Source: a virus. From it: 26,754 nucleotides of DNA. Where the stretch lies: positions 1-26,754 of the IMG/VR virus record IMGVR_UViG_3300035182_000695; one strand, written 5' to 3'. A model generated the notes under the pieces. The model saw only the letters and a list, made by a program, of their open reading frames with translations. It was not told the DNA's origin and did not search any database. How positions within the stretch are numbered: the stretch's first letter is position 1; every line of letters starts with the position of its first letter. Positions 1-26,754 of the stretch are shown here, in pieces. Position numbers and translations under genes: made by a program.

Positions 1-296
1 TCTTATTTATTTATTTTATTTATCTTACTTAGTTAGTAGAGCGTTAGTCCTCCACCTTTTGTTTCCAACGTCTCCGACGATTTTTTTTATTTTTGCTTTT
101 AAGCTTGATTCTTTTTGTTGATGTTAATTTATTGCACGTCAAATTAAATTGCTGCAACTAATATTTTTTTCACGGTCAACTTATTTATTGTTGATAACTT
201 ATTTAAAAGTTTAACTCATTATATTTTTATAATCAGATTATTCAAATTCTTTGGCCTGACTCTAAAAATGTTAAAACGAATATTTTTTTATTTTAT
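1..296. other. Non-coding left flank
   Basis: No coding frame is visible on either strand. The segment is very AT-rich, with a short GC-richer patch around 45-80. It contains a small AT-rich inverted repeat (TTAATTT at 124-130 against AAATTAA at 141-147) that could be part of the left end of the tnpB element, but no end motif can be fixed. It ends at the tnpB promoter. Confidence 0.5.
69..88 (+). terminator. Possible weak intrinsic terminator
   Basis: CGTC (69-72) pairs with GACG (76-79) around a 3-base loop, followed by A and eight T (81-88). The 4-bp stem is short for an intrinsic terminator. If real it would end an upstream + strand transcript before the tnpB element. Confidence 0.25.
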
Positions 297-327
297 TTTG
301 TATTTTTAAATAAAATGTCTATATTTG
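297..327 (+). promoter_or_regulatory. Bacteroidota-type promoter of tnpB (first copy)
   Basis: A -33 box TTTG (297-300), a 19-bp spacer and a -7 box TATATTTG (320-327) match the Bacteroidota primary sigma consensus exactly. The tnpB ATG is at 332, so the expected transcription start falls at or one base before the start codon. The tnpB mRNA would then be leaderless or nearly so. Confidence 0.75.
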
Positions 328-331
328 TGCT

Positions 332-1594
332 ATGTTAAAGGCTTTCAAGTACAGACTATACCCAAACAAAGAACAGCAAATTGCTTTAGATAAGCATATT
401 GGTAGCGTTCGTTTTGTTTATAATTTAGCTTTAGAAACTAAAAAGGTGGCGTACAATAACGCTCGTGTAAATCTTTCGAGATACGATTTACAAGTTCAAT
501 TAAAAGACTTGAAAAAAGAATGTGAGTGGTTGAAAGAAGTAAATAGTCAGAGTTTACAAGTTGCATTAATGAACTTAGATGCTTCTTATTTGAGTTATTT
601 CAGAGGATTAAAAGACGGAAGTATTGATAAGAAAAAAAATAATTATGTTAATTCTAAATTATCAAAAGGATTGCCGATAGACAACAATAAACTTCAAAAC
701 ATAGGAAAGCCGAAATTCAAAAGTAAAAAAGACAGCGTTCAAAGTTTCAATTGTCCTCAGAATTTTTACATAATAGACGGTAAATTAGATATTCCTAAAT
801 TAAAAACTGGAATTAAAATAATCTTACACAGAAAATTAGTTGGAGAACAAAGAAACGTAACTATAAGCAGAACATCAACAGGGAAATATTTCGCATCCAT
901 ATTAGTTGAAGACGGATTCGTGGCGCCGAAATTAAAGAAAATAAAACCTGAAACATCAGTAGGATTAGACTTAGGTATTAAAACATTTGCTGTTTGTAGC
1001 GATGGAAAAGAAATAGAGTCGCCTAAATTTTTAAGAGAATCTTTAAAAAGAATAAAAATATTACAAAAAAGACAAGCGAAAAAAAATAAAGATAGTAATA
1101 ACAGTAAAAAAGCATTAAAAAAAATCGCATTAGCGCACGAAAAAGTTGCTAATCAAAGGAAAGATTTTCTACACAAAGAAAGTAATTTGATAACCAAAAA
1201 TTATGATACAATTTGTTTAGAAGATTTAGCAGTTTCAAACTTAGTGAAAAATCATTCATTAGCTTTATCAATAAGCGATTCGGGATGGAGTATTTTTACT
1301 CGATTTGTAAAATATAAAGCAGATTGGGGAGGTAAAAACTATATTGAAATTGATAGATTTTTTCCTAGCAGCAAGCTTCACGCAAAATGCGGTTACATAA
1401 ATAAAGACTTGGAATTAATTCAGCGAGAATGGACTTGTAAATGTGGTGAATTAGTAAACCGAGACTTAAATGCAGCAATAAATATTCGCAATTTTGCGTT
1501 AAAACAAACAGGAGTGGGACGCTCCAAAGTGCTTGTGGAGTTGCCGACAATGGTCGGGGCTATGAAACAAGAAGCACATAAGATTATTATCTAG
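332..1594 (+). CDS. tnpB: TnpB, RNA-guided endonuclease of an IS200/IS605-type element
   Basis: This is a complete 420-aa TnpB, the ancestor-type relative of Cas12. It binds an omegaRNA transcribed from its own 3' end and cuts DNA matching the guide. The OrfB-type helix-turn-helix N terminus (FKYRLYPNKEQ, residues 5-15) is followed by a split RuvC domain. The catalytic residues are D213 in GLDLGIKT, E297 in CLEDL and D378 in NRDLNAAINI, all present, so the nuclease looks active. The zinc ribbon is atypical: H350-x2-C353 and C369-x-C371. Residues about 95-122 form a charged insertion that the second TnpB in the window lacks. The start is fixed by the conserved MLKAFKYR beginning just after the promoter. 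No TnpA transposase lies within the window, so mobility would need TnpA in trans, or the gene has been kept for its nuclease activity. Confidence 0.95.
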   Translation: MLKAFKYRLYPNKEQQIALDKHIGSVRFVYNLALETKKVAYNNARVNLSRYDLQVQLKDLKKECEWLKEVNSQSLQVALMNLDASYLSYFRGLKDGSIDKKKNNYVNSKLSKGLPIDNNKLQNIGKPKFKSKKDSVQSFNCPQNFYIIDGKLDIPKLKTGIKIILHRKLVGEQRNVTISRTSTGKYFASILVEDGFVAPKLKKIKPETSVGLDLGIKTFAVCSDGKEIESPKFLRESLKRIKILQKRQAKKNKDSNNSKKALKKIALAHEKVANQRKDFLHKESNLITKNYDTICLEDLAVSNLVKNHSLALSISDSGWSIFTRFVKYKADWGGKNYIEIDRFFPSSKLHAKCGYINKDLELIQREWTCKCGELVNRDLNAAINIRNFALKQTGVGRSKVLVELPTMVGAMKQEAHKIII

Positions 1595-1624
1595 TGTAGT
1601 TCACAATAATCCTTCAATCGATGA
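1511..1624 (+). ncRNA. Probable omegaRNA 3' scaffold, right end and guide of the first tnpB element
   Basis: Two hairpins sit at the tnpB 3' end. The first is CCGAC (1544-1548) with GTCGG (1553-1557) around the loop AATG. The second is CACATAAGAT (1575-1584) with ATCTAGTG (1589-1596), which has two bulged A residues. The second ends in GTAGTTCAC (1596-1604), which from memory matches the right end of many IS605-type tnpB elements. By the omegaRNA rule the guide would begin at 1605 and cover about 1605-1624, including the ATG of the next gene. The 5' boundary of the RNA is a guess. Confidence 0.5.
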
Positions 1625-1830
1625 ATGACGAATCATTAATGCCATTTGGAAAATACAAAAACATTAGACTTGCAAATATCCCTGCGAGTTACTTCTTTTA
1701 TCTCGAACCTGGAATGAAAGAAAAAGCCCCTAATAAGCGCAGTTTGACTGAAAAACTTCTACTAGACTACATAAACGACAATCGAGATGTTCTAAATAAA
1801 CAGGTCAATGAGTCAAGAAGCGGTAATTAG
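1621..1830 (+). CDS. DUF3820 family small protein
   Basis: The 69-aa protein matches the DUF3820 pattern at its N terminus: LMPFGKYKNIRLANIPASY (residues 6-24) resembles the usual MPFGKYKG...L.DIP.SYL signature. DUF3820 proteins are common in phages and bacteria; their biochemical role is not established. Its ATG lies only 16 bases past the inferred right end of the tnpB element, so the insertion probably separated the gene from its original upstream region. It may now be expressed by read-through from the tnpB promoter. It is not part of the P1 unit, whose promoter lies downstream of its stop. Confidence 0.8.
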   Translation: MNDESLMPFGKYKNIRLANIPASYFFYLEPGMKEKAPNKRSLTEKLLLDYINDNRDVLNKQVNESRSGN

Positions 1831-1861
1831 GCGTTAACTTTAATATACTTAACATCAGATT

Positions 1862-1937
1862 GTTAATAACTTTACAAACATTTTATTTGCAGATGTGTAT
1901 ATTCGTTGTATATTTGTGTAACAATTAAGTTAAACAC
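1862..1937 (+). promoter_or_regulatory. Promoter P1 with conserved upstream palindrome and leader
   Basis: The palindrome GTTAATAAC (1862-1870) is followed 15 bp later by the -33 box TTTG (1886-1889, continuing as TTTGCAG), a 19-bp spacer and the -7 box TATATTTG (1909-1916). A 21-base leader, TGTAACAATTAAGTTAAACAC (1917-1937), follows; its core TTAAGTTAA is palindromic. The same arrangement recurs at P2 and P3. Transcription should start near 1920, giving a leader of about 36 nt to the ATG at 1956. Confidence 0.85.
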
Positions 1938-1955
1938 TAGCAAAATCAAGACATT

Positions 1956-2348
1956 ATGAGTAATTTTCAAGCATCAGAATCAGGAGTTATCAAAGCAGGT
2001 GATATAGCATCATTCAAAGGATTTTGGGATGCGGAAGTTAAGACTGCTGATAAAGGAATCATTACAGTTATAGGAAACGATGGTGTGTTTATGGACGATT
2101 CTTTTCAAAAGAAAGAAGAATTCACTATCGAAGACTTAAAGCGTATTTTCAGAAAGTTTAATGTGCTTCGTCCAGAAAATACGCACGAATCGATTATAAA
2201 ATACTCAAAACTTTACGAATCAGACAGATTTCCTGTTTCTGTACATAGAATGATACTTAATGCGATAAAGCCTCACAGAAACGATTTAAAGCAGTTGCAC
2301 GATAAGTTTCTTGCATTAGTTGAAAACAAAATTGGTAAAATCTATTAA
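1956..2348 (+). CDS. Hypothetical protein, first gene of unit P1
   Basis: I do not recognise this 130-aa protein. Residues about 12-48 look like a run of short beta strands with glycines (for example GIITVIGNDGVF). The C-terminal two thirds are charged and helical. It has no signal peptide or membrane segment, so it is probably cytosolic. It is the promoter-proximal gene behind P1, the position of strongest expression, and the next gene follows after 2 bases. Confidence 0.85.
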   Translation: MSNFQASESGVIKAGDIASFKGFWDAEVKTADKGIITVIGNDGVFMDDSFQKKEEFTIEDLKRIFRKFNVLRPENTHESIIKYSKLYESDRFPVSVHRMILNAIKPHRNDLKQLHDKFLALVENKIGKIY

Positions 2349-2350
2349 TT

Positions 2351-2674
2351 ATGAAAAAGTACACTCAATTAGAAACGGAACAAAGAGAAGCTCAAGCGAG
2401 ATTCGATAAAGCAATCTATTTAACTTATGTTGAATATGGAAAATACAACCAGTATAAGCGTATTAATAAGGAGTTGTTTATTGAGATGTTAAATAACAAG
2501 GTTGATAAAAAAACAACTCACGAATTTGATAAAAAAAGAATTTATAGAATAGCTGACAGTAAGGAAATTTGGATTGATAAAAATAAAAATGTTTTAGGTG
2601 AGGTTTTCACGGAAGTTTGTAGGGACAATGAAGATATTGTTTTAGAATCATTTTGGATTAACGAAGGATATTAA
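2351..2674 (+). CDS. Hypothetical protein
   Basis: This 107-aa soluble protein has a charged, Tyr-rich helical N terminus (residues 1-50) and a C-terminal half with several short predicted strands ending in an acidic stretch (CRDNEDIVLESFW). No family is recognised. It starts 2 bases after the previous stop and is clearly in the same transcription unit. Confidence 0.8.
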   Translation: MKKYTQLETEQREAQARFDKAIYLTYVEYGKYNQYKRINKELFIEMLNNKVDKKTTHEFDKKRIYRIADSKEIWIDKNKNVLGEVFTEVCRDNEDIVLESFWINEGY

Positions 2675-2686
2675 AAACTACTCATA

Positions 2687-2893
2687 ATGTTTGATAGTAA
2701 GCAAGAATTAATAAAAAGGCATAAAGCTAAGCATCAAGAGGAGTTGCTTGAGATTTTCATTCTAATAGAAGAAAATACTATGCAAACAAAAGTACAGGCG
2801 CTTACTAGATACGCAAGGCTTTTTGGCATGACTGATAAAATAAAAGCGAATGAAGAAATGAAAAAAGCTTACTCTGAATTTAATACCAAATAA
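2687..2893 (+). CDS. Small helical phage-type hypothetical protein
   Basis: The 68-aa protein is almost entirely helical and highly charged. The segment LIEENTMQTKVQALTRYARL (residues 26-45) and the following FGMTDKI resemble small conserved hypothetical proteins of Bacteroidota phages. This is recognition from memory, not a search. No catalytic motif is visible. It lies 12 bases after its neighbour in the P1 unit. Confidence 0.75.
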   Translation: MFDSKQELIKRHKAKHQEELLEIFILIEENTMQTKVQALTRYARLFGMTDKIKANEEMKKAYSEFNTK

Positions 2894-2904
2894 AAAAATA
2901 TAAA

Positions 2905-3234
2905 ATGAAATCATATTATTCTCTAATGTCAATGTTTGCACTTTCAATGATGAGTGCAGATAATTTTGGCAACACAACAAATAGGCGTTCTAATTTTATT
3001 TCTGATGAAGAATTAGAGCAAAAGAATAAGCCTAACTATAAATTCAATTTCTCTATTCCTAAAAGTACAAAGTTGTATCTGTTTGAAAGCAATGGAAACT
3101 TTGAAACTTTCACAGAGTTTGCAAGTCGTAATGAAATGCCAAATTATTGTGTGTTTCATTGTATTGCAATAAATGATAAGTCAGCATTAAATAAGTTTAA
3201 TAAATGGAAATTATCAAACAGTGCAGGATGCTAA
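2905..3234 (+). CDS. Hypothetical protein
   Basis: The 109-aa protein opens with a Met/Ser-rich, weakly hydrophobic stretch (residues 3-18, YYSLMSMFALSMMSAD). This is too polar for a convincing signal peptide or membrane helix. A disordered middle is followed by a compact beta-rich C terminus (residues 48-105). No function is known. Its stop codon overlaps the beginning of the first structured spacer, the TAA lying inside GCTAAC. Confidence 0.75.
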   Translation: MKSYYSLMSMFALSMMSADNFGNTTNRRSNFISDEELEQKNKPNYKFNFSIPKSTKLYLFESNGNFETFTEFASRNEMPNYCVFHCIAINDKSALNKFNKWKLSNSAGC

Positions 3235-3242
3235 CACTTGCC

Positions 3243-3318
3243 ACTAACGTTACGAAGCCTTGCTTAGTTTGACTCTTAGCGGTTATGTAATGCCAAATTG
3301 AGCAAGGGTTGGGTTAGT
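3243..3318 (+). other. Structured non-coding spacer E1 (attC-like or RNA hairpin)
   Basis: An outer stem pairs ACTAAC (3243-3248) with GTTAGT (3313-3318). An inner 14-bp stem pairs CCTTGCTTAGTTTG (3258-3271) with CAAATTGAGCAAGG (3294-3307), fully paired with two G-U wobbles, around a 22-base loop. It is GC-richer than its surroundings and sits in a spacer of 135 bases, in a region where spacers are usually under 15. The AAC/GTT outer pairing with unequal internal spacers resembles an integron attC site; a structured regulatory RNA is the alternative. Confidence 0.55.
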
Positions 3319-3369
3319 AACAGTAGCCAAATTAAAATTTAAAAACAAATAACAATTAAAAATACAATT

Positions 3370-3612
3370 ATGAAAAATTCAAGTGTAACAATAAAAGGAT
3401 TAACAAGAATACAAGCAAATGCATTAGCTCTTTTGTGCGAGGATGAAGCTATCGGCAAATTGATTAATGAAAAAATGGATGAAATAAAATCCACAACAGA
3501 GGAAGGAGATGAGTTATATGATTTATGTAGTTCATTAGAGGACGAAATGGCTTCAATGGATTTTGACGACTCTGATGGTGACGTTAATCATGTTGCTGAT
3601 TTTGGCGCTTAA
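3370..3612 (+). CDS. Small acidic protein between two structured spacers
   Basis: The 80-aa protein has a helical N-terminal half (VTIKGLTRIQANALALLCED, residues 6-25) and a strongly acidic tail (DFDDSDGDVNHVADFGA). The tail could mimic nucleic acid or bind cations; this is inference. No family is recognised. It is the only gene bounded on both sides by hairpin-bearing spacers (E1 and E2), giving it the look of a single-gene cassette. It has its own A-rich leader of about 30 bases and no visible promoter. Confidence 0.75.
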   Translation: MKNSSVTIKGLTRIQANALALLCEDEAIGKLINEKMDEIKSTTEEGDELYDLCSSLEDEMASMDFDDSDGDVNHVADFGA

Positions 3613-3655
3613 TAAACCTATATCAACACCCGAAGCATAAACATCAAAGGCTATT

Positions 3656-3711
3656 GGTGCTAACGGATTGCACCTAATAAATCGGCTTGCTGTTTATTAG
3701 GTGCTGTTACC
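3656..3711 (+). other. Structured non-coding spacer E2 (12-bp perfect hairpin)
   Basis: GCACCTAATAAA (3670-3681) and TTTATTAGGTGC (3693-3704) form a perfect 12-bp stem around an 11-base loop. An outer pairing GGT...AAC (3656-3658, 3662-3664) with GTTACC (3706-3711) gives the same layout as E1. An alternative hairpin is possible between GGTGC (3656-3660) and GCACC (3670-3674), so the element could switch between two folds. There is no T-tract after the stem, so it is not a standard intrinsic terminator. Confidence 0.6.
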
Positions 3712-3772
3712 TGCTGGCGGACTGAATGTTGCTATAAGACTTTAATATAAAAACAATTTAACAAATAAAAAT

Positions 3773-4153
3773 ATGACAATCAGATTAAATATTAAGAGAA
3801 TCGCCTTTGTCGGCTTAGTATTAATGCTATTCAGCTTTATGTTAGCTACAATATTCAAGTTCTGTCAATTATCTCAAGTGATACAACAACCTCAGCGTGA
3901 TGTTGCTATTACTATGTCAATTATTTTTATTGCTGCTGTTGGCTGCTTACTTTGTTTACTCGCAGTTGTTTTATCTTCTATCAATAGCGTTAAAGAGATT
4001 ATAGATGAGCAATATCAAGAACGAATGGATGAAAATCAAACAGCACTTGCGGGAGAAATTATATCGATGGTTAAAAATCATCAAGGCAGCGGAAACGCAT
4101 TATTTAAAATACTAACAGAATTTCACCTTACTAAAAAGAAAAACAATAACTAA
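3773..4153 (+). CDS. Small two-helix inner-membrane protein
   Basis: The 126-aa protein has two strong hydrophobic segments (about residues 9-29 and 45-70) separated by a short polar loop, then a soluble charged C-terminal tail of about 55 residues predicted to be helical. By the positive-inside rule both ends are probably cytoplasmic (RLNIKR precedes helix 1). No family is recognised. It lies downstream of spacer E2 and 22 bases before the large 708-aa gene. Confidence 0.8.
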   Translation: MTIRLNIKRIAFVGLVLMLFSFMLATIFKFCQLSQVIQQPQRDVAITMSIIFIAAVGCLLCLLAVVLSSINSVKEIIDEQYQERMDENQTALAGEIISMVKNHQGSGNALFKILTEFHLTKKKNNN

Positions 4154-4175
4154 AATAAAAAAACAAAAAGATAGT

Positions 4176-6302
4176 ATGAAAAAGTTCAACGCAACAATTC
4201 AAAAGCACTTCGACGAGATGTGCAAAACAGGCAAACTGTTCAGAGTAAAATTAACAGGACAAGAAATTTGGGACTTGTATCTCAAATCATTCGACAACGA
4301 CCCAATGTTCAGAGACCCCGAAAGCTCTACACATAACTGTAATCATTGCAAAAATTTCATTAGAAGATACGGAAACATAGTTTCTATCTCAGAAGACTTC
4401 AAAATTGTAACATTGTTTGATGTGCAAGCAGATGAAGAATTTGTTAGCGTTGCAGCCGCTTTATCTAAGGCAGTTAAATCATCTAAGGTGGCAGAAGTGT
4501 TCTTTGAAACATTTGATGAGCTTAATAAGCTTCCTTATGAGAGCTGTAATAAGAAAAACGCATTGTTTCAATTAGGTGTTGATAAAAACACTAAACGCTA
4601 TACTAAAGAAGAAGCCGAGAAGTTTGGTGTTGTTAAAGCTAATCAATTGGTTGAGTTTCATCACTTGCACTTATCATTACATAAAGACTTTGTAGATACA
4701 ACTGGCAATTCTGTTGAATCAATTATGGGTAAATACAGAGATGACAAAAATGTTTTCGAGCGTGCTATGGAAACAATCTCTTTAGACACTTTACACTTAG
4801 TTCGAGATTTAATCAATCAAGGTTCTTTACTAGACGGACAAACTCACCTGTATAAAGTTGAGCAAATGATTCCTTTGAAAAAAGAATACGATGAATTGAG
4901 TAAAGCGCAAAGAAGTAATTGGTGTTGGATTAAGTCTTACAAATTTCAGTTAGCTAAATTCAGAAACGAATTAATAGGCGTTTTATGTACTGAGCTTTCA
5001 GAAGGCAAAGAAATTAATGAAGCGTGTCAAGCTTGGAACAAACGAGTTGACCCTATCAATTATATGAAAACAACCGCTCCAATAACTAAAAAGCAAATCG
5101 CAGAAGCTAAAGAGTTTGTTGAGCAAAATGGCTATACTGAGTCCTTTGATAGAAGATTCGCTACCATCGAAGACATTAAAGCGTCTGAGATATTACACAT
5201 CAACTCAGGAAAAGGCGGACTTGAAGAGGTTTCTATTTTTGATAGCGTGAAAGCAACATCTTCAACAAGACACAAAAGAAATGAGTTCGACGGCATTGAA
5301 GAAGTGAGCATAGAGAAATTTATGGAAACTATTCTGCCTACTTGCTCTTCTGTTGAAGTGCTTTTAAGAAGCGCACACGAAAGTAATTTAGCGTCTTTAA
5401 CAACAGCTAACAATCCTGATAGCAAGAATATCTTTAAATGGAGTAACAATTACTCTTGGACGTTTAATGGCGATTTAGCCGGCAAATCTCAAATCAAAGA
5501 TGCTGTAAAGTCAAGAGGTGGAAATGTAGAAGGTGTTATGCGTATTAGTTTATCTTTTCCTGACACTACTGATGATTATGATTTACACTTAATCGAGCCT
5601 AACAGAAATCAAATATCTTATAGTAATTTGAGAGTTAAGCATTCATCTTCGGGTATGTTGGATTTAGATGCTCAAGGACGAGATGGAAATCAACCTGCTG
5701 AAAAACGAGTAGAGAACATTATCTACACAGACAAAGCTAGTATGCCAAAAGGTGCTTATCAAGTATATGTAAACAACTATTCTGAAAGAGGATTACATAC
5801 CGCATTTATGCTAGAAATTGAAATTGATAATGAAATTACTGTTTTGAAATTGAAACCAAAAAAATCAATCAACAAGATTAATGCTTGTAAAATTGAATTT
5901 GACGGAAACAATTTTGAATTAACGCCTTGCGAAGGAATGGAAGTTACTGATTCAAAATCTATCTCTAAAGAAATTTACGGATTAGAAACAAATCAATTTC
6001 ATAAAGTAAATTTAGTTTGCTTGTCACCTAATCATTGGGGAGATAACAATGTAGGCAATAAGCATTACTTCTTTATGCTAGACAAATGTAAATCTCCTGT
6101 AAGCATTAGAAGCTTTCATAACGAGAACTTAATGCCTGAGTTAGCTGCTCACAGAAAAGTAATGGAGGTACTCGCTAGTTCAAACTCTATTACATCAACA
6201 GACAAACAACTTTCGGGACTCGGATTTAATGCGACGGTCAGAGAAGAGTTGATTGTTAGGCTAACAGGTACGCATAAAAGAACATTGAAAATTAAATTCT
6301 AA
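4176..6302 (+). CDS. Large phage-type protein with a DUF2135/YfaP-like beta domain
   Basis: At 708 aa this is the largest protein here. The N terminus carries a possible metal site, H53-x-C55-x2-C58, in NCNHCKNFIRRYG. The middle (about residues 70-450) is mostly helical. Residues about 460-540 carry the DUF2135/YfaP-like pattern: DYDLHLIEPNRNQISYSN, then SGMLDLDAQGRDG, ENIIYT and GAYQVYVNNY. This beta sandwich is often found with vWA or adhesion-type proteins. A conserved C-terminal block SPNHWGDNNVGNKHYFFM starts near residue 618. There is no signal peptide, so it is probably cytosolic or a virion-associated factor. Proteins of this architecture occur in phages of several phyla; their role is unknown to me. 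The 129-aa gene after it looks like a functional partner. Confidence 0.9.
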   Translation: MKKFNATIQKHFDEMCKTGKLFRVKLTGQEIWDLYLKSFDNDPMFRDPESSTHNCNHCKNFIRRYGNIVSISEDFKIVTLFDVQADEEFVSVAAALSKAVKSSKVAEVFFETFDELNKLPYESCNKKNALFQLGVDKNTKRYTKEEAEKFGVVKANQLVEFHHLHLSLHKDFVDTTGNSVESIMGKYRDDKNVFERAMETISLDTLHLVRDLINQGSLLDGQTHLYKVEQMIPLKKEYDELSKAQRSNWCWIKSYKFQLAKFRNELIGVLCTELSEGKEINEACQAWNKRVDPINYMKTTAPITKKQIAEAKEFVEQNGYTESFDRRFATIEDIKASEILHINSGKGGLEEVSIFDSVKATSSTRHKRNEFDGIEEVSIEKFMETILPTCSSVEVLLRSAHESNLASLTTANNPDSKNIFKWSNNYSWTFNGDLAGKSQIKDAVKSRGGNVEGVMRISLSFPDTTDDYDLHLIEPNRNQISYSNLRVKHSSSGMLDLDAQGRDGNQPAEKRVENIIYTDKASMPKGAYQVYVNNYSERGLHTAFMLEIEIDNEITVLKLKPKKSINKINACKIEFDGNNFELTPCEGMEVTDSKSISKEIYGLETNQFHKVNLVCLSPNHWGDNNVGNKHYFFMLDKCKSPVSIRSFHNENLMPELAAHRKVMEVLASSNSITSTDKQLSGLGFNATVREELIVRLTGTHKRTLKIKF

Positions 6303-6330
6303 ATATAAATCAAATAAAAAAACAGAAAAA

Positions 6331-6720
6331 ATGGAAATGTACAAAGAAGCAACAAGACTTGGACTAAGAGTTCAAACAACAAGAGGTCCTTTATCAATTG
6401 AACAATTGTGGGACTTAAAATTAACTGAATTAGATGCTTTAGCAGTATCTCTTCAAGAGGCTCACGAAAAATCAAAAAGTAAATCGTTTTTGGACACTAA
6501 GACTGTTAAAGACAAAGGAATTAAATTACAATTCGATATTGTATTAGACATTCTTAATACTAAAAACGAAGAGCAAAAAGCCGCCAAAGAGTCTGCGAGA
6601 ATCAAAGCGCACAACAACAGAATTGACGAGCTTATCGCTGAGAAAAAAGATAAAGTTATGGAAGCTAAATCTATCAAAGACCTTGAGAAGATGAGAATTC
6701 CAGTAGAGTCAGAAGATTAA
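6331..6720 (+). CDS. Conserved phage protein, partner of the 708-aa protein
   Basis: The 129-aa protein begins with a pattern I recognise from many phage genomes: MYKEATRLGLRVQTTRGPLS (residues 3-22), then EQLWDLKLTELDALAV. This is followed by FDIVLDILNTK and a long charged coiled-coil C terminus (about residues 78-125). The family has no known biochemical activity, but the coiled coil suggests oligomerisation or binding to a partner. It is separated by 28 A-rich bases from the 708-aa gene and ends just before a hairpin, so the two form a natural sub-operon. Confidence 0.85.
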   Translation: MEMYKEATRLGLRVQTTRGPLSIEQLWDLKLTELDALAVSLQEAHEKSKSKSFLDTKTVKDKGIKLQFDIVLDILNTKNEEQKAAKESARIKAHNNRIDELIAEKKDKVMEAKSIKDLEKMRIPVESED

Positions 6721-8903: not shown

Positions 8904-9143
8904 ATGAAAAACAAAATGCTATTGCTTTCGATTTCAACTATACTTCTTTTCAGTTGTCAAGACGAAGCCCCTATTTTTAATAAATGGAATCCATTTGTTG
9001 TTCACGAAATTAAGTACTACAAAGATTCATTAGATTGCTACACGGCACTTTATGTAAAAGCTCGTGGTGTTGTACACTCTAATCTGTATGCAAAACGAGG
9101 AATGTTTAAAATCGGCGACACTATTAATGTTTCAAAAAAATAA
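8904..9143 (+). CDS. Small predicted lipoprotein, possibly surface-exposed
   Basis: The 79-aa precursor has a signal peptide (MKNKMLLLSISTILLF) and lipobox LFSC with C18 lipidated. The residues after it, QDE, resemble the acidic lipoprotein export signal that sends Bacteroidota lipoproteins to the outer surface. The N-terminal signal is nearly identical in design to that of the lipoprotein gene at 6999, but the mature parts are unrelated. A phage surface lipoprotein would fit blocking of superinfection; this is inference. Confidence 0.85.
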   Translation: MKNKMLLLSISTILLFSCQDEAPIFNKWNPFVVHEIKYYKDSLDCYTALYVKARGVVHSNLYAKRGMFKIGDTINVSKK

Positions 9144-9147
9144 AGTT

Positions 9148-9636
9148 ATGAAGGTAATTATTAAATCATTTGACGGTACAGTTTTACCGTTTCTGTCTGA
9201 GTTAGATGTTCCTAGCGAAATAGATAATCCTGATACTGTGGAATTAACTTACGATTTTAGAATTAGAAAGTTTCACTTACAATTAATAAAATTGGAGTGG
9301 GAAACTTCACTTGATAAGTATTGCGTTAAAACAAAAGCTTTAAACTCTTATAGAAACAACCGTGATGGATATTTTCAATTCGAGAAGGCTTTAGAGATAG
9401 GAATTGATGTAACTAAATATGCAGATGTTGAAACTAAAATAAGTGCTGCTGGAGATATAGGTGTTCGTAGAATAGTTCACTTTAAATCTACATACAAAGA
9501 GCCTGACAAAGGAAAGCCATTTATAGAAGCTGCTGTTAAAGATTTATTGAATGAGTTACATAGAGAAGAAATAACATTTAGCAGAATGGTTGAGAAAATG
9601 AATGAAGTAGCAATTGAATGGTCGCACAAAAAATAA
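9148..9636 (+). CDS. Hypothetical protein
   Basis: The start is placed at the ATG at 9148, four bases after the lipoprotein stop; an upstream in-frame extension to 9064 would run through the lipoprotein gene. The 162-aa protein is soluble, with a beta-rich N-terminal half (TVELTYDFRIRKFHLQL) and a helical C terminus (EAAVKDLLNELHREE). No family is recognised. It precedes the frameshifted paralogue 2. Confidence 0.8.
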   Translation: MKVIIKSFDGTVLPFLSELDVPSEIDNPDTVELTYDFRIRKFHLQLIKLEWETSLDKYCVKTKALNSYRNNRDGYFQFEKALEIGIDVTKYADVETKISAAGDIGVRRIVHFKSTYKEPDKGKPFIEAAVKDLLNELHREEITFSRMVEKMNEVAIEWSHKK

Positions 9637-9655
9637 TCAATTTAATAATACAAAA

Positions 9656-10100
9656 ATGAAACCAAATAAAACAACAACAATCACAAACGAATTAAGATTA
9701 CCTATTTTACGCTATGTACATTGGACAAGAATGCTACATAGAAAAAGGTAGAGTTACAGGCGTTAAGAAACAAATCATTCCAAAAGTATTGGACTTTAAA
9801 AAAGACAATGATAGTTTCATAGATGCTACAAGTGCAATATTTGGAAACCACCCTATTCTTTTAAAAAGCTTAGCTAGTGTCAGTCATGCTGACATTATAG
9901 AAGTTTGCAAAATTGAGTATGGCGAACAATATGGTTTATTGGATGACACTTTACTTATTGGCGATAGAATCATACAAGCAATGGAATTTGGCTTTAAATC
10001 TTTTCAGTACTTACAATCTAAAGGTTACGCTCTTCCATATTTAGATTACTCGGTAGAGCAGCTAGTGAAATTAAAAGTTTACAAACTAATTAAACAGTAG
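9656..10100 (+). pseudogene. Paralogue 2 of the YLQSKGYALP family, apparent +1 frameshift
   Basis: The family's N terminus and body lie in different frames. ATG 9656 opens MKPNKTTTITNELRLPILRY, matching other members (MKNITQEIKLKILHNY, MKSISEKVRACIYNQY), but the frame stops at about 9751. The body continues one frame over from 9714 to 10100 (128 codons) with GQECYIEKG, block A LLKSLASVSHADIIEV and block B FQYLQSKGYALPYLDYS. Removing one base in CGCTATGTACATT (about 9705-9717) would give a continuous protein of about 147 aa. It may be a disabled gene, a sequencing error, a recoding site, or a shortened protein started at ATG 9714. Confidence 0.75.
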
Positions 10101-14112: not shown

Positions 14113-14122
14113 ACAATGCTTT

Positions 14123-14198
14123 GTTAGCAATTATTTTCAATAAAAGTTTGCAGATTCAAAAAGATGTTATATATTTGTGTAACATTTAAGTTAAGCAC
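14123..14198 (+). promoter_or_regulatory. Promoter P2 with conserved upstream site and leader
   Basis: The -33 box TTTG (14147-14150, as TTTGCAG), a 19-bp spacer and the -7 box TATATTTG (14170-14177) are followed by the leader TGTAACATTTAAGTTAAGCAC (14178-14198), which differs from that of P1 at two bases. GTTAGCAAT (14123-14131) lies exactly where P1 and P3 have GTTAATAAC, 15 bp upstream of the -33 box, and matches it at 6 of 9 positions. The ATG follows at 14219. Confidence 0.85.
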
Positions 14199-14218
14199 CA
14201 TTTTTAAAAAAAGACAGT

Positions 14219-20632: not shown

Positions 20633-20634
20633 CT

Positions 20635-20710
20635 GTTAATAACTAATATCGAAATAAATTTGCAGGAATGAAATAATGTTGTACATTTGTGTAACATTTA
20701 AGTTAAACAC
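20635..20710 (+). promoter_or_regulatory. Promoter P3 with conserved upstream palindrome and leader
   Basis: GTTAATAAC (20635-20643) lies 15 bp before the -33 box TTTG (20659-20662, as TTTGCAG). A 19-bp spacer, the -7 box TACATTTG (20682-20689) and the leader TGTAACATTTAAGTTAAACAC (20690-20710) follow. The leader differs from that of P1 at one base. The upstream palindrome overlaps the region just after the stop of paralogue 6. The ATG is at 20727. Confidence 0.87.
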
Positions 20711-20726
20711 TATTAAAATCAAGACA

Positions 20727-25754: not shown

Positions 25755-26754
25755 ATGCTAAAATCGTACAAATACAGGATATACCCAACAGATGAACAGA
25801 AGCAAAAATTAGCTTCTTACTTCGGCTGTTGCCGATTTGTGTATAACATTGGACTTGAAACGAAAATTGCGGCTTGGAATTCAGCCAAAGTTAATTATAA
25901 CTCATTTGATTTATCAAAACAATTAACTGAACTTAAAAACACGGATGCGAAATGGCTATGCGAATGCCCCGCACAATCATTACAACAATCTCTTCGGAAT
26001 TTAGATAAAGCTTACTGTAATTTCTTTACTTGTAAAGGGTTTCCTAAATTTAAAAACAAACACTCAAAACAGTCAGTTCAGTTCGCTCAATATGTTAAAG
26101 TGAATTTACAGGATTCAACCGTGTTTTTACCGAAATTAAAAGGCGTTTCTGCGAATTTTCATCGTAAATTTAAAGGCGAAATAAAAACAGTTACAGTTTC
26201 AAAAACTACTACTGATAAATATTTTGTGAGCATTTTAGTTGATAATAAAATCGAGCTTCCGAAGAAAAAACCAATCAAAGAAAAAACAGCGATTGGCATT
26301 GATTTAGGCATCAAAGATTTAGCAATTTTATCTGATGAAACAGTTTTTGAAAACAAAAAGTTTCTAAGAAATTCACTCGCAAATTTAAGAGTTCAACAGC
26401 GTTCGCTATCAAGAAAAAAGAAAACGAGTAATCAATATAAAAAACAAAAGCTAGTCTTAGCAAAGCTTCACGAGAGAATTAAAAATCAGCGTGAAGATTA
26501 TTTACACAAAGTAACAACTTCGATAATCAAGAAGTATGATACAATTGTGTTGGAAAATTTGAATGTGACAGGTATGGTTAAGAATCACAATTTAGCATTA
26601 TCCATAAGTGATATGGGTTGGTCAAACTTCAATCGAATGCTGGACTACAAAGCTGAGTGGTACGGAAAAAATATTATCCGCATCGGAAGATTTGAGCCCT
26701 CAAGCAAAACCTGCTCAGAATGCGGCAAAATAAACAAAGAATTAAAGCTATCTG
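25755..26754 (+). CDS. tnpB: Second TnpB, partial at the window edge
   Basis: The frame is open from ATG 25755 to the last base (333 codons visible of an expected 370-420). It has the N terminus YKYRIYPTDEQK, RuvC-I D183 in GIDLGIKD, RuvC-II E267 in VLENLNV, and the first zinc pair C320-x2-C323 (KTCSECG). The RuvC-III aspartate, omegaRNA and right end lie outside the window. It differs clearly from the first TnpB: a shorter N-terminal domain without the charged insertion, and a canonical CxxC. The two are therefore separate acquisitions, not recent duplicates. Both point the same way and no tnpA is seen. Confidence 0.93.
   Translation, partial: MLKSYKYRIYPTDEQKQKLASYFGCCRFVYNIGLETKIAAWNSAKVNYNSFDLSKQLTELKNTDAKWLCECPAQSLQQSLRNLDKAYCNFFTCKGFPKFKNKHSKQSVQFAQYVKVNLQDSTVFLPKLKGVSANFHRKFKGEIKTVTVSKTTTDKYFVSILVDNKIELPKKKPIKEKTAIGIDLGIKDLAILSDETVFENKKFLRNSLANLRVQQRSLSRKKKTSNQYKKQKLVLAKLHERIKNQREDYLHKVTTSIIKKYDTIVLENLNVTGMVKNHNLALSISDMGWSNFNRMLDYKAEWYGKNIIRIGRFEPSSKTCSECGKINKELKLS

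Follow-up and report, generated by a model that had tools for sequence, protein, structure and literature searches.

The closest described counterparts of this locus are integron components carried by phages. The available portion of PMC9892861 reports such components in 21 phages, Polaribacter phage P12002L included, with 17 attC clusters as well as complete integrons with IntI, and it describes the recombination of one P12002L site with attI1 through IntI1. IntI itself is defined by an IntI-specific domain that is described as required for recombination and that serves in the detection of integrases (PMC9668308, in the part available). In the accessible text on IntegronFinder 2.0 (PMC9024848), the single complete integron mentioned for Bacteroidetes proper is that of Salinibacter. 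Within a literature coverage that lies mostly outside subscription journals and preprints, no publication was found that describes such arrays together with a recombinase dedicated to them in phages. As far as these sources extend, integron sites in phages are already known, and the compact recombinase without the IntI domain, the attI-like site and the large family of sites form the new part.

The window, the whole stretch of DNA that was analysed, covers positions 1 to 26,754 of a virus record (IMGVR_UViG_3300035182_000695) totalling 146,216 bases. A 708-aa protein encoded at 4176–6302 exhibits 56% identity to its counterpart in Cellulophaga phage phi4:1 (Lightbulbvirus, 145,865 bases), and the window phage is identified as a relative of this phage. 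Two loci, L003 and L005, belong to close relatives of the window phage (65% and 62% in P0003), and both encode the compact recombinase, with an attI-like site. No empty site is available for comparison with the locus in the window, since the genes that flank E1 and E2 lack counterparts adjoining the P0003 relatives. DNA similarity searches against phage records gave no match for window positions 2900–4200, nor for one array region. Gaps of at least 80 nt make up 7 of the 57 between listed ORFs, two of these being the E1 and E2 spacers, so the description of the region in the sequence-only reading as having almost no spacers is a fair one. At 332–1594 the window encodes a TnpB-like protein (OrfB_IS605 plus a Cas12f1-like TNB domain), and the start of this gene is repeated at 73%, 25 kb away (25755–25799), which suggests a second TnpB-like copy running off the window. 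There is also an 81-nt repeat with three copies in or beside gaps (1861–1941, 14122–14202 and 20634–20714), containing TTTG and TAnnTTTG words that presumably resemble Bacteroidota promoters.

The hairpins E1 and E2 are very probably phage-borne integron sites for which related phages encode the proposed recombinase, and the window would hold one intact cassette between two eroded ones. The features of the region are as follows:

2905–3234, + strand: gene of the left-neighbour cassette, 109 aa (P0004), with relatives in L240 and L299
3237–3248, + strand: putative end of the left cassette, CTTGCCACTAAC, which fits the family end TTGNNNNTAAC
3244–3317, + strand: E1, attC-like hairpin, pairing checked in the sequence
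3248–3663, + strand: predicted sole intact cassette, E1 plus the gene up to TAA, its ends placed by the crossover in relatives
3313–3377, + strand: cassette leader, common to cassettes with other genes in other phages
3370–3612, + strand: cassette gene, an open reading frame for an acidic protein of 80 aa of no known family
3616–3667, + strand: cassette tail, common to other phage cassettes
3660–3710, + strand: E2, attC-like hairpin of the next cassette rightwards, matched by the R1 model
3706–3772, + strand: leader of the right-hand cassette, GTTACCTGCTGGCGG..., with matches in other phages
3773–4153, + strand: gene of the right-hand cassette, 126 aa with a hydrophobic N-terminal half, right cassette end missing

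E1 is composed of CTAAC (3244–3248), a 9-nt gap, a stem of 14 bp of which two pairs are G-U (3258–3271/3294–3307), a 5-nt gap and GTTAG (3313–3317). The corresponding parts of E2 are CTAAC (3660–3664), a 5-nt gap, a perfect stem of 12 bp (3670–3681/3693–3704), a 1-nt gap and GTTAC (3706–3710), and because the right word reads GTTAC, the outer pairing of E2 is limited to TAAC/GTTA. Opening the last four pairs of the E2 stem produces gaps of 9/5, as in E1. These coordinates, the AAC/GTT outer pairs, the gaps of 9/5 and 5/1 and the stem lengths had all been described correctly from the sequence alone. The competing GGTGC/GCACC hairpin described for E2 also exists (3656–3660/3670–3674), but a role for it as an RNA switch found no support and was rejected. 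A scan for CTAAC, a stem of at least 8 and GTTA over 1.04 Mb (the window and the loci), with the reversed sequence as control, gave 21 matches versus 44 in the control; the count is not enriched. Four of the real matches have stem scores of at least 12, three of them being E1, E2 and the L005 hairpin, versus a best score of 9.5 in the control. The folding energies on the + strand are ordinary (RNA z of −1.6 for E1 and −1.8 for E2), and folding energy was dropped as evidence since neither value is exceptional. Alone, E1 and E2 are not compelling; the related family elsewhere is judged to lift them above chance.

Comparison with other phages assigns E1 and E2 to a large family of hairpins in phages of Bacteroidota. 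In L005, which belongs to a relative of the window phage, one hairpin follows the same plan, and the viral contig L095 carries a row of about seven hairpins, each followed by one small gene. When a strict pattern was taken from L095, viral contigs gave 77 matching stretches, and 257 Gb of genomes of bacteria and archaea gave 7, one of them in a record of Anoxynatronum, a member of the Firmicutes. The covariance model R1, built from 48 strict-pattern elements with none from the window, matches E2 at 3651–3721 (49.1 bits, E=6.6e-11); its match to E1 is not significant (8.7 bits, E=4.9). Near copies of E1 occur at L260:5560–5665 (82% to window 3245–3347, running on into the same leader) and L123:12120–12189, with further copies of this type in L142 at about 12,960, L193 and L201, and most of the E1-type copies lie within arrays. 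E1 is accordingly placed in a sister type of the R1 hairpins, and R1 probably misses such sister types. A pattern of the E1 type gave 5 stretches, among which L198, L200 and L166 carry the same site; L199 looks like chance coding sequence and was rejected. A looser pattern, TGCTAACG..GTTATCTGCTG, was also set aside, as only L092 of its 10 viral stretches is element-like by eye. Neither Polaribacter phage Leef_1 nor Cellulophaga phage Ingeline_1 has an R1 match in its recombinase region. By appearance, the cultured phage Leef_1 (L301, 5400–6000) has cassette-like inverted ends, GTTGGTAACAGTTAAATTTTA...TTTAATTGTTACCAAC, with a gene start inside a hairpin and a cassette end directly before the integrase.

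In the 48 aligned elements, paired cells make up 97.3%, and 62 stem cells have changed on both sides compared with 16.9 after shuffling (0 of 500 shuffles as high). This covariation, together with the 9/5 gaps of E1, fits an attC-like imperfect hairpin with an uneven internal loop. The outer TAAC/GTTA words are invariant in the set and thus give no information by themselves, and the constancy of TAACG and GCTGTTA is partly selection, since R1 and the 48 elements were drawn by one strict pattern. Relatives lacking AAC/GTT, which had been named as evidence that would speak against the attC reading, were not encountered; TAAC/GTTA is present in 48 of 48 aligned elements, chosen by a pattern containing both words. 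The R boxes RYYYAAC and GTTRRRY are found in 11 and 12 among 151 distinct elements, with a composition expectation of 11.8% and 11.5%, and the consensus is not kept in the family, being fitted only at the composition rate. In the window, CACTAAC/GTTAGTA of E1 and TGCTAAC/GTTACCT of E2 do not fit RYYYAAC/GTTRRRY.

The left-neighbour cassette ends at the first of the hairpins. The relative of its P0004 product in L240 (5504–5779, 31% identical, tblastn E=7e-6) is encoded by the last gene before the recombinase site there, and a second relative is found in L299 (E=5e-7). No GTTAGTGG start partner of this cassette occurs in window 1–6500, and the cassette looks eroded because its own hairpin is missing. 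E1 is assigned to the cassette of the 80-aa gene because of the putative crossover position. The two ends of this cassette (3314–3328 and 3649–3663) are inverted copies, matching at 9 of 12 positions after TTA/TAA and at 9 of 15 over a longer stretch; among other cassettes, 2 of 136 ends and 6 of 127 starts also reach the latter value, some of which carry identical shared cassette ends. Its leader is 91% identical to L193/L166/L234 and 97% over 39 nt to L126, and its tail is 94% identical to L122:8456–8405 and 88% to L126 (3607–3665) and L119 (3610–3676). The 80-aa protein itself has no relative that was found, and PHROG and Pfam gave no match. E2 and the leader following it exhibit 82% identity to L164:11152–11263, 88% to L142:10594–10678 and 96% over 55 nt to L260:6655–6709, while the 126-aa protein behind them has no relative in 300 loci and no CAGGTAAC end partner of the right-hand cassette occurs in window 1–6500. 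Near-identical leaders and tails surround unrelated genes in L122, L126, L166, L193, L260 and window 3313–3667. Such cassettes appear to be shared shells with swapped content.

The arrays of this family have a uniform organization. Every locus with at least two elements has all of them on one strand (49/49), and the longest ORF between elements lies on the element strand in 117 of 124 cassettes, a count that leaves out the duplicates L257, L276 and L277. Cassette ends were tested with 180 of 198 R1 rows, leaving out 16 whose E exceeded 0.01 and two that were shadows on the reverse strand; 79 of 96 cassettes are distinct, and the 60 under 900 bases entered the permutation. In these 60, the 15 bases after the start TTA and the 15 before the end TAA are complementary at 8.53 positions versus 4.76 for permuted partners (0 of 10,000 permutations as high). 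The flanks of one hairpin are complementary at 4.55 of 15, the level of chance. Complementarity between the ends of one cassette, and not between the flanks of one hairpin, is what an integron cassette predicts, the site being complete only in the circle. Some contigs contributed more than one locus (for example L104/L232; L139/L192/L235; L099/L193/L200/L234), so locus counts are not counts of independent phages, and many records are metagenomic fragments, with the terminase PF03237 in only 16 of 50 array records.

The cargo was sampled as 77 proteins, namely 73 cassette proteins together with three encoded in the window and one in L005. Pfam identified N6/N4 methyltransferases (6), Mom (2), Dam (2), DUF551 (2), MT-A70 (1) and others found once each. 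The L005 cassette (9084–9911) encodes a prokaryotic viperin (E=4.6e-90). By eye, this viperin cassette lies downstream of two tRNA-like sequences. In L100, L142, L153, L297 and L095, several cassette ORFs begin in the hairpin loop and cross the right arm as ..LGAV or ..AV, and the recombination site would thus encode the N-terminus of the protein.

No PF00589 tyrosine recombinase was identified in the 146-kb record of the window, by a search that was positive in 14 of 14 control genomes. A cluster of attC without integrase (CALIN) is defined by at least two attC sites under the published attC models and by the lack of intI; the record of the window has two attC-like sites and no PF00589 protein. 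Searches for recombinase and terminase took 50 of the 77 viral loci, many of them fragments, and PF00589 is present in 9 of the 50 array records. There are ten array-type recombinases, leaving out one longer, weaker match in G003, with lengths of 266–289 aa. Nine of the ten lie downstream of a same-strand element, at a distance of 164–2539 nt, the exception being G025. The conserved alignment columns of the phage recombinases presumably correspond to the catalytic residues. The IntI model TIGR02249 scores all 9 of 9 recombinases under its curated cut-off, with the match split into two stretches, and the IntI-specific domain is absent: residues 180–241 of IntI4 (2a3v) have only 19 counterparts. 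By sequence, the closest solved relatives are XerA-like proteins (4a8e, 5hxy), followed by IntI4, and the predicted fold is likewise led by XerA and IntI4 with 5hxy first, at a mean pLDDT of 84.4 and a pTM of 0.64 that leave the domain placement uncertain. A protein search extended the group to 80 related recombinase loci, 79 of which entered the element and strand analysis, L166 having been searched before. The R1 elements in the 79 loci share the strand of the recombinase in 70 of 70 cases; 67 lie upstream of it, and the 3 that lie downstream are each followed by another attI-like site. Only 32 of the 79 loci contain an R1 element, so that either the model covers a narrow range or some recombinases are without an array.

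At the end of many arrays stands the gene of a compact tyrosine recombinase, with TAACTAYTATATGTA in front of it. This conserved sequence, the attI-like site, lies about 80 nt before the recombinase start, and cassette ends of the form TTGNNNNTAAC run into it (33 aligned loci). A looser form of the site is found in 53 of the 79 loci versus 160 of 4000 random stretches. Among eight loci that share one recombinase, four contexts occur: the 900 bases on the right side of TAAC are 96–100% identical, and the 300 bases on its left side are 22–30% identical between the contexts. In L232 and L234, cassettes identical over 287–339 bases occupy different places. The break in identity at TAAC and the relocated cassettes place the probable crossover at TAAC and indicate that cassettes change place, and the site is recognized on this basis as a conserved attI where cassettes exchange.

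It is unlikely that the hairpins are canonical attC sites from bacteria, worked by a host IntI, with the phage recombinases being unrelated phage integrases. The recombination of the P12002L attC site by class 1 IntI1, described in the available part of PMC9892861, would suit such an origin, and R1 hairpins do occur in the methyltransferase region of P12002L (29996–30066, E=0.002; 30897–30965, E=0.0013), where they likely represent the recombined site. However, the R boxes match the canonical consensus only at the composition rate, a host IntI does not account for a compact recombinase at the array end with a conserved site at which exactly the cassettes change, and a bacterial origin is at odds with the presence of just one or two elements in 23 of 395 Bacteroidota genomes, which may be prophages. 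Of the attC plan proposed in the sequence-only reading, the part that stands is therefore that of attC-like sites bounding one cassette gene, as the comparisons indicate, and not that of canonical attC, given the R-box rate and the recombinase.

It is very improbable that cassettes spread without a site-specific step, through homologous recombination in the leaders, tails and hairpins that they share. Leaders and tails are common to cassettes with different genes, and site-specific recombination alone does not account for them, but identity drops from 96–100% to 22–30% at TAAC in every different-context pair, and the strand uniformity and the adjoining recombinase would have to be explained otherwise. 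The least credible account makes the hairpins structured RNA elements of a phage operon (regulators, terminators or a translation switch), since, although they stand 5′ of genes and an ORF begins inside the hairpin in several cassettes of other phages, the regulatory or small RNAs raised earlier as alternatives gained no positive support, Rfam families at gathering score gave 0 matches in the window, and an RNA role alone does not predict inverted cassette ends, TAAC swapping or a neighbouring recombinase. A side role of the hairpins in translation may exist.

Under the phage integron reading, each site is a hairpin of TAAC, an uneven internal loop, a variable stem-loop and GTTA, probably used as folded single-stranded DNA. 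The compact XerA/IntI-like recombinase of related phages would cut at TAAC/GTTA, the hairpin and its gene would be excised through a putative circular intermediate, and the circle would be inserted at another hairpin or at the attI-like TAACTAYTATATGTA beside the recombinase gene. The cassette of the window may have been gained with the help of a recombinase acting in trans, provided by another phage or a prophage in the same cell. The comparisons support the family, the arrays, the cassette ends, the recombinase link and the crossover position; they record history and not activity, and recombination at this locus is read from sequences. Counted against a phage integron are the lack of a recombinase in the record, the failure of R1 to find E1, the lack of one end in each neighbour cassette, the 41 of 50 array records without PF00589, the restriction of R1 elements to 32 of 79 recombinase loci and the ordinary folding energies.

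A wider proposal, held with fair though lesser confidence, is that phages of Bacteroidota own an independent integron lineage. Its recombinase would be compact and lack the IntI domain, TAACTAYTATATGTA would serve as its attI, its sites would be coded by no more than GTTA and the shape of the hairpin, and its cassettes would be inverted. Small genes from a common pool, among them those for DNA methyltransferases, Mom-like modifiers and a viperin, would be passed between phages by this lineage, which may resemble a form ancestral to IntI integrons or be of independent origin. Because the available text of PMC9668308 holds the IntI domain necessary and uses it for detection, a working integron without it would, if confirmed, change what integrons need and escape domain-based detection. 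Phages would then possess a dedicated means of exchanging genes for defence and anti-restriction, which would account in part for the sharp mosaicism of their accessory regions. The phage integron is testable in phages with cultured hosts, P12002L and, as a lead, Leef_1.

Among known systems, the closest solved relatives of the phage recombinase are XerA and archaeal Xer proteins (4a8e, 5hxy). Xer proteins act in chromosome-dimer resolution at fixed sites and are not known to have cassette arrays. The likeness to Polaribacter phage P12002L lies in phage-borne cassettes with methyltransferases and R1-family hairpins in that region; in contrast, the available portion of PMC9892861 reports no dedicated compact phage recombinase, attI of the TAACTAYTATATGTA kind or large family. 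In Treponema integrons the recombinase and cassette genes are also transcribed in one direction, but intI is read towards attI, according to the part of PMC3607928 available, whereas the phage recombinase is downstream of the array and is read away from attI. It seems that phages operate a counterpart of the gene-trading integrons of bacteria: as in the bacterial and archaeal integron of IntI, attI and attC, there are arrays of one-gene cassettes, folded asymmetric sites ending in GTT, and a tyrosine recombinase beside a conserved insertion site where cassettes are exchanged. Unlike IntI integrons, the phage recombinase has no IntI-specific region and the R-box consensus is not kept, and unlike the standard arrangement, the phage cassette genes point towards attI and the recombinase, which itself reads away from attI.
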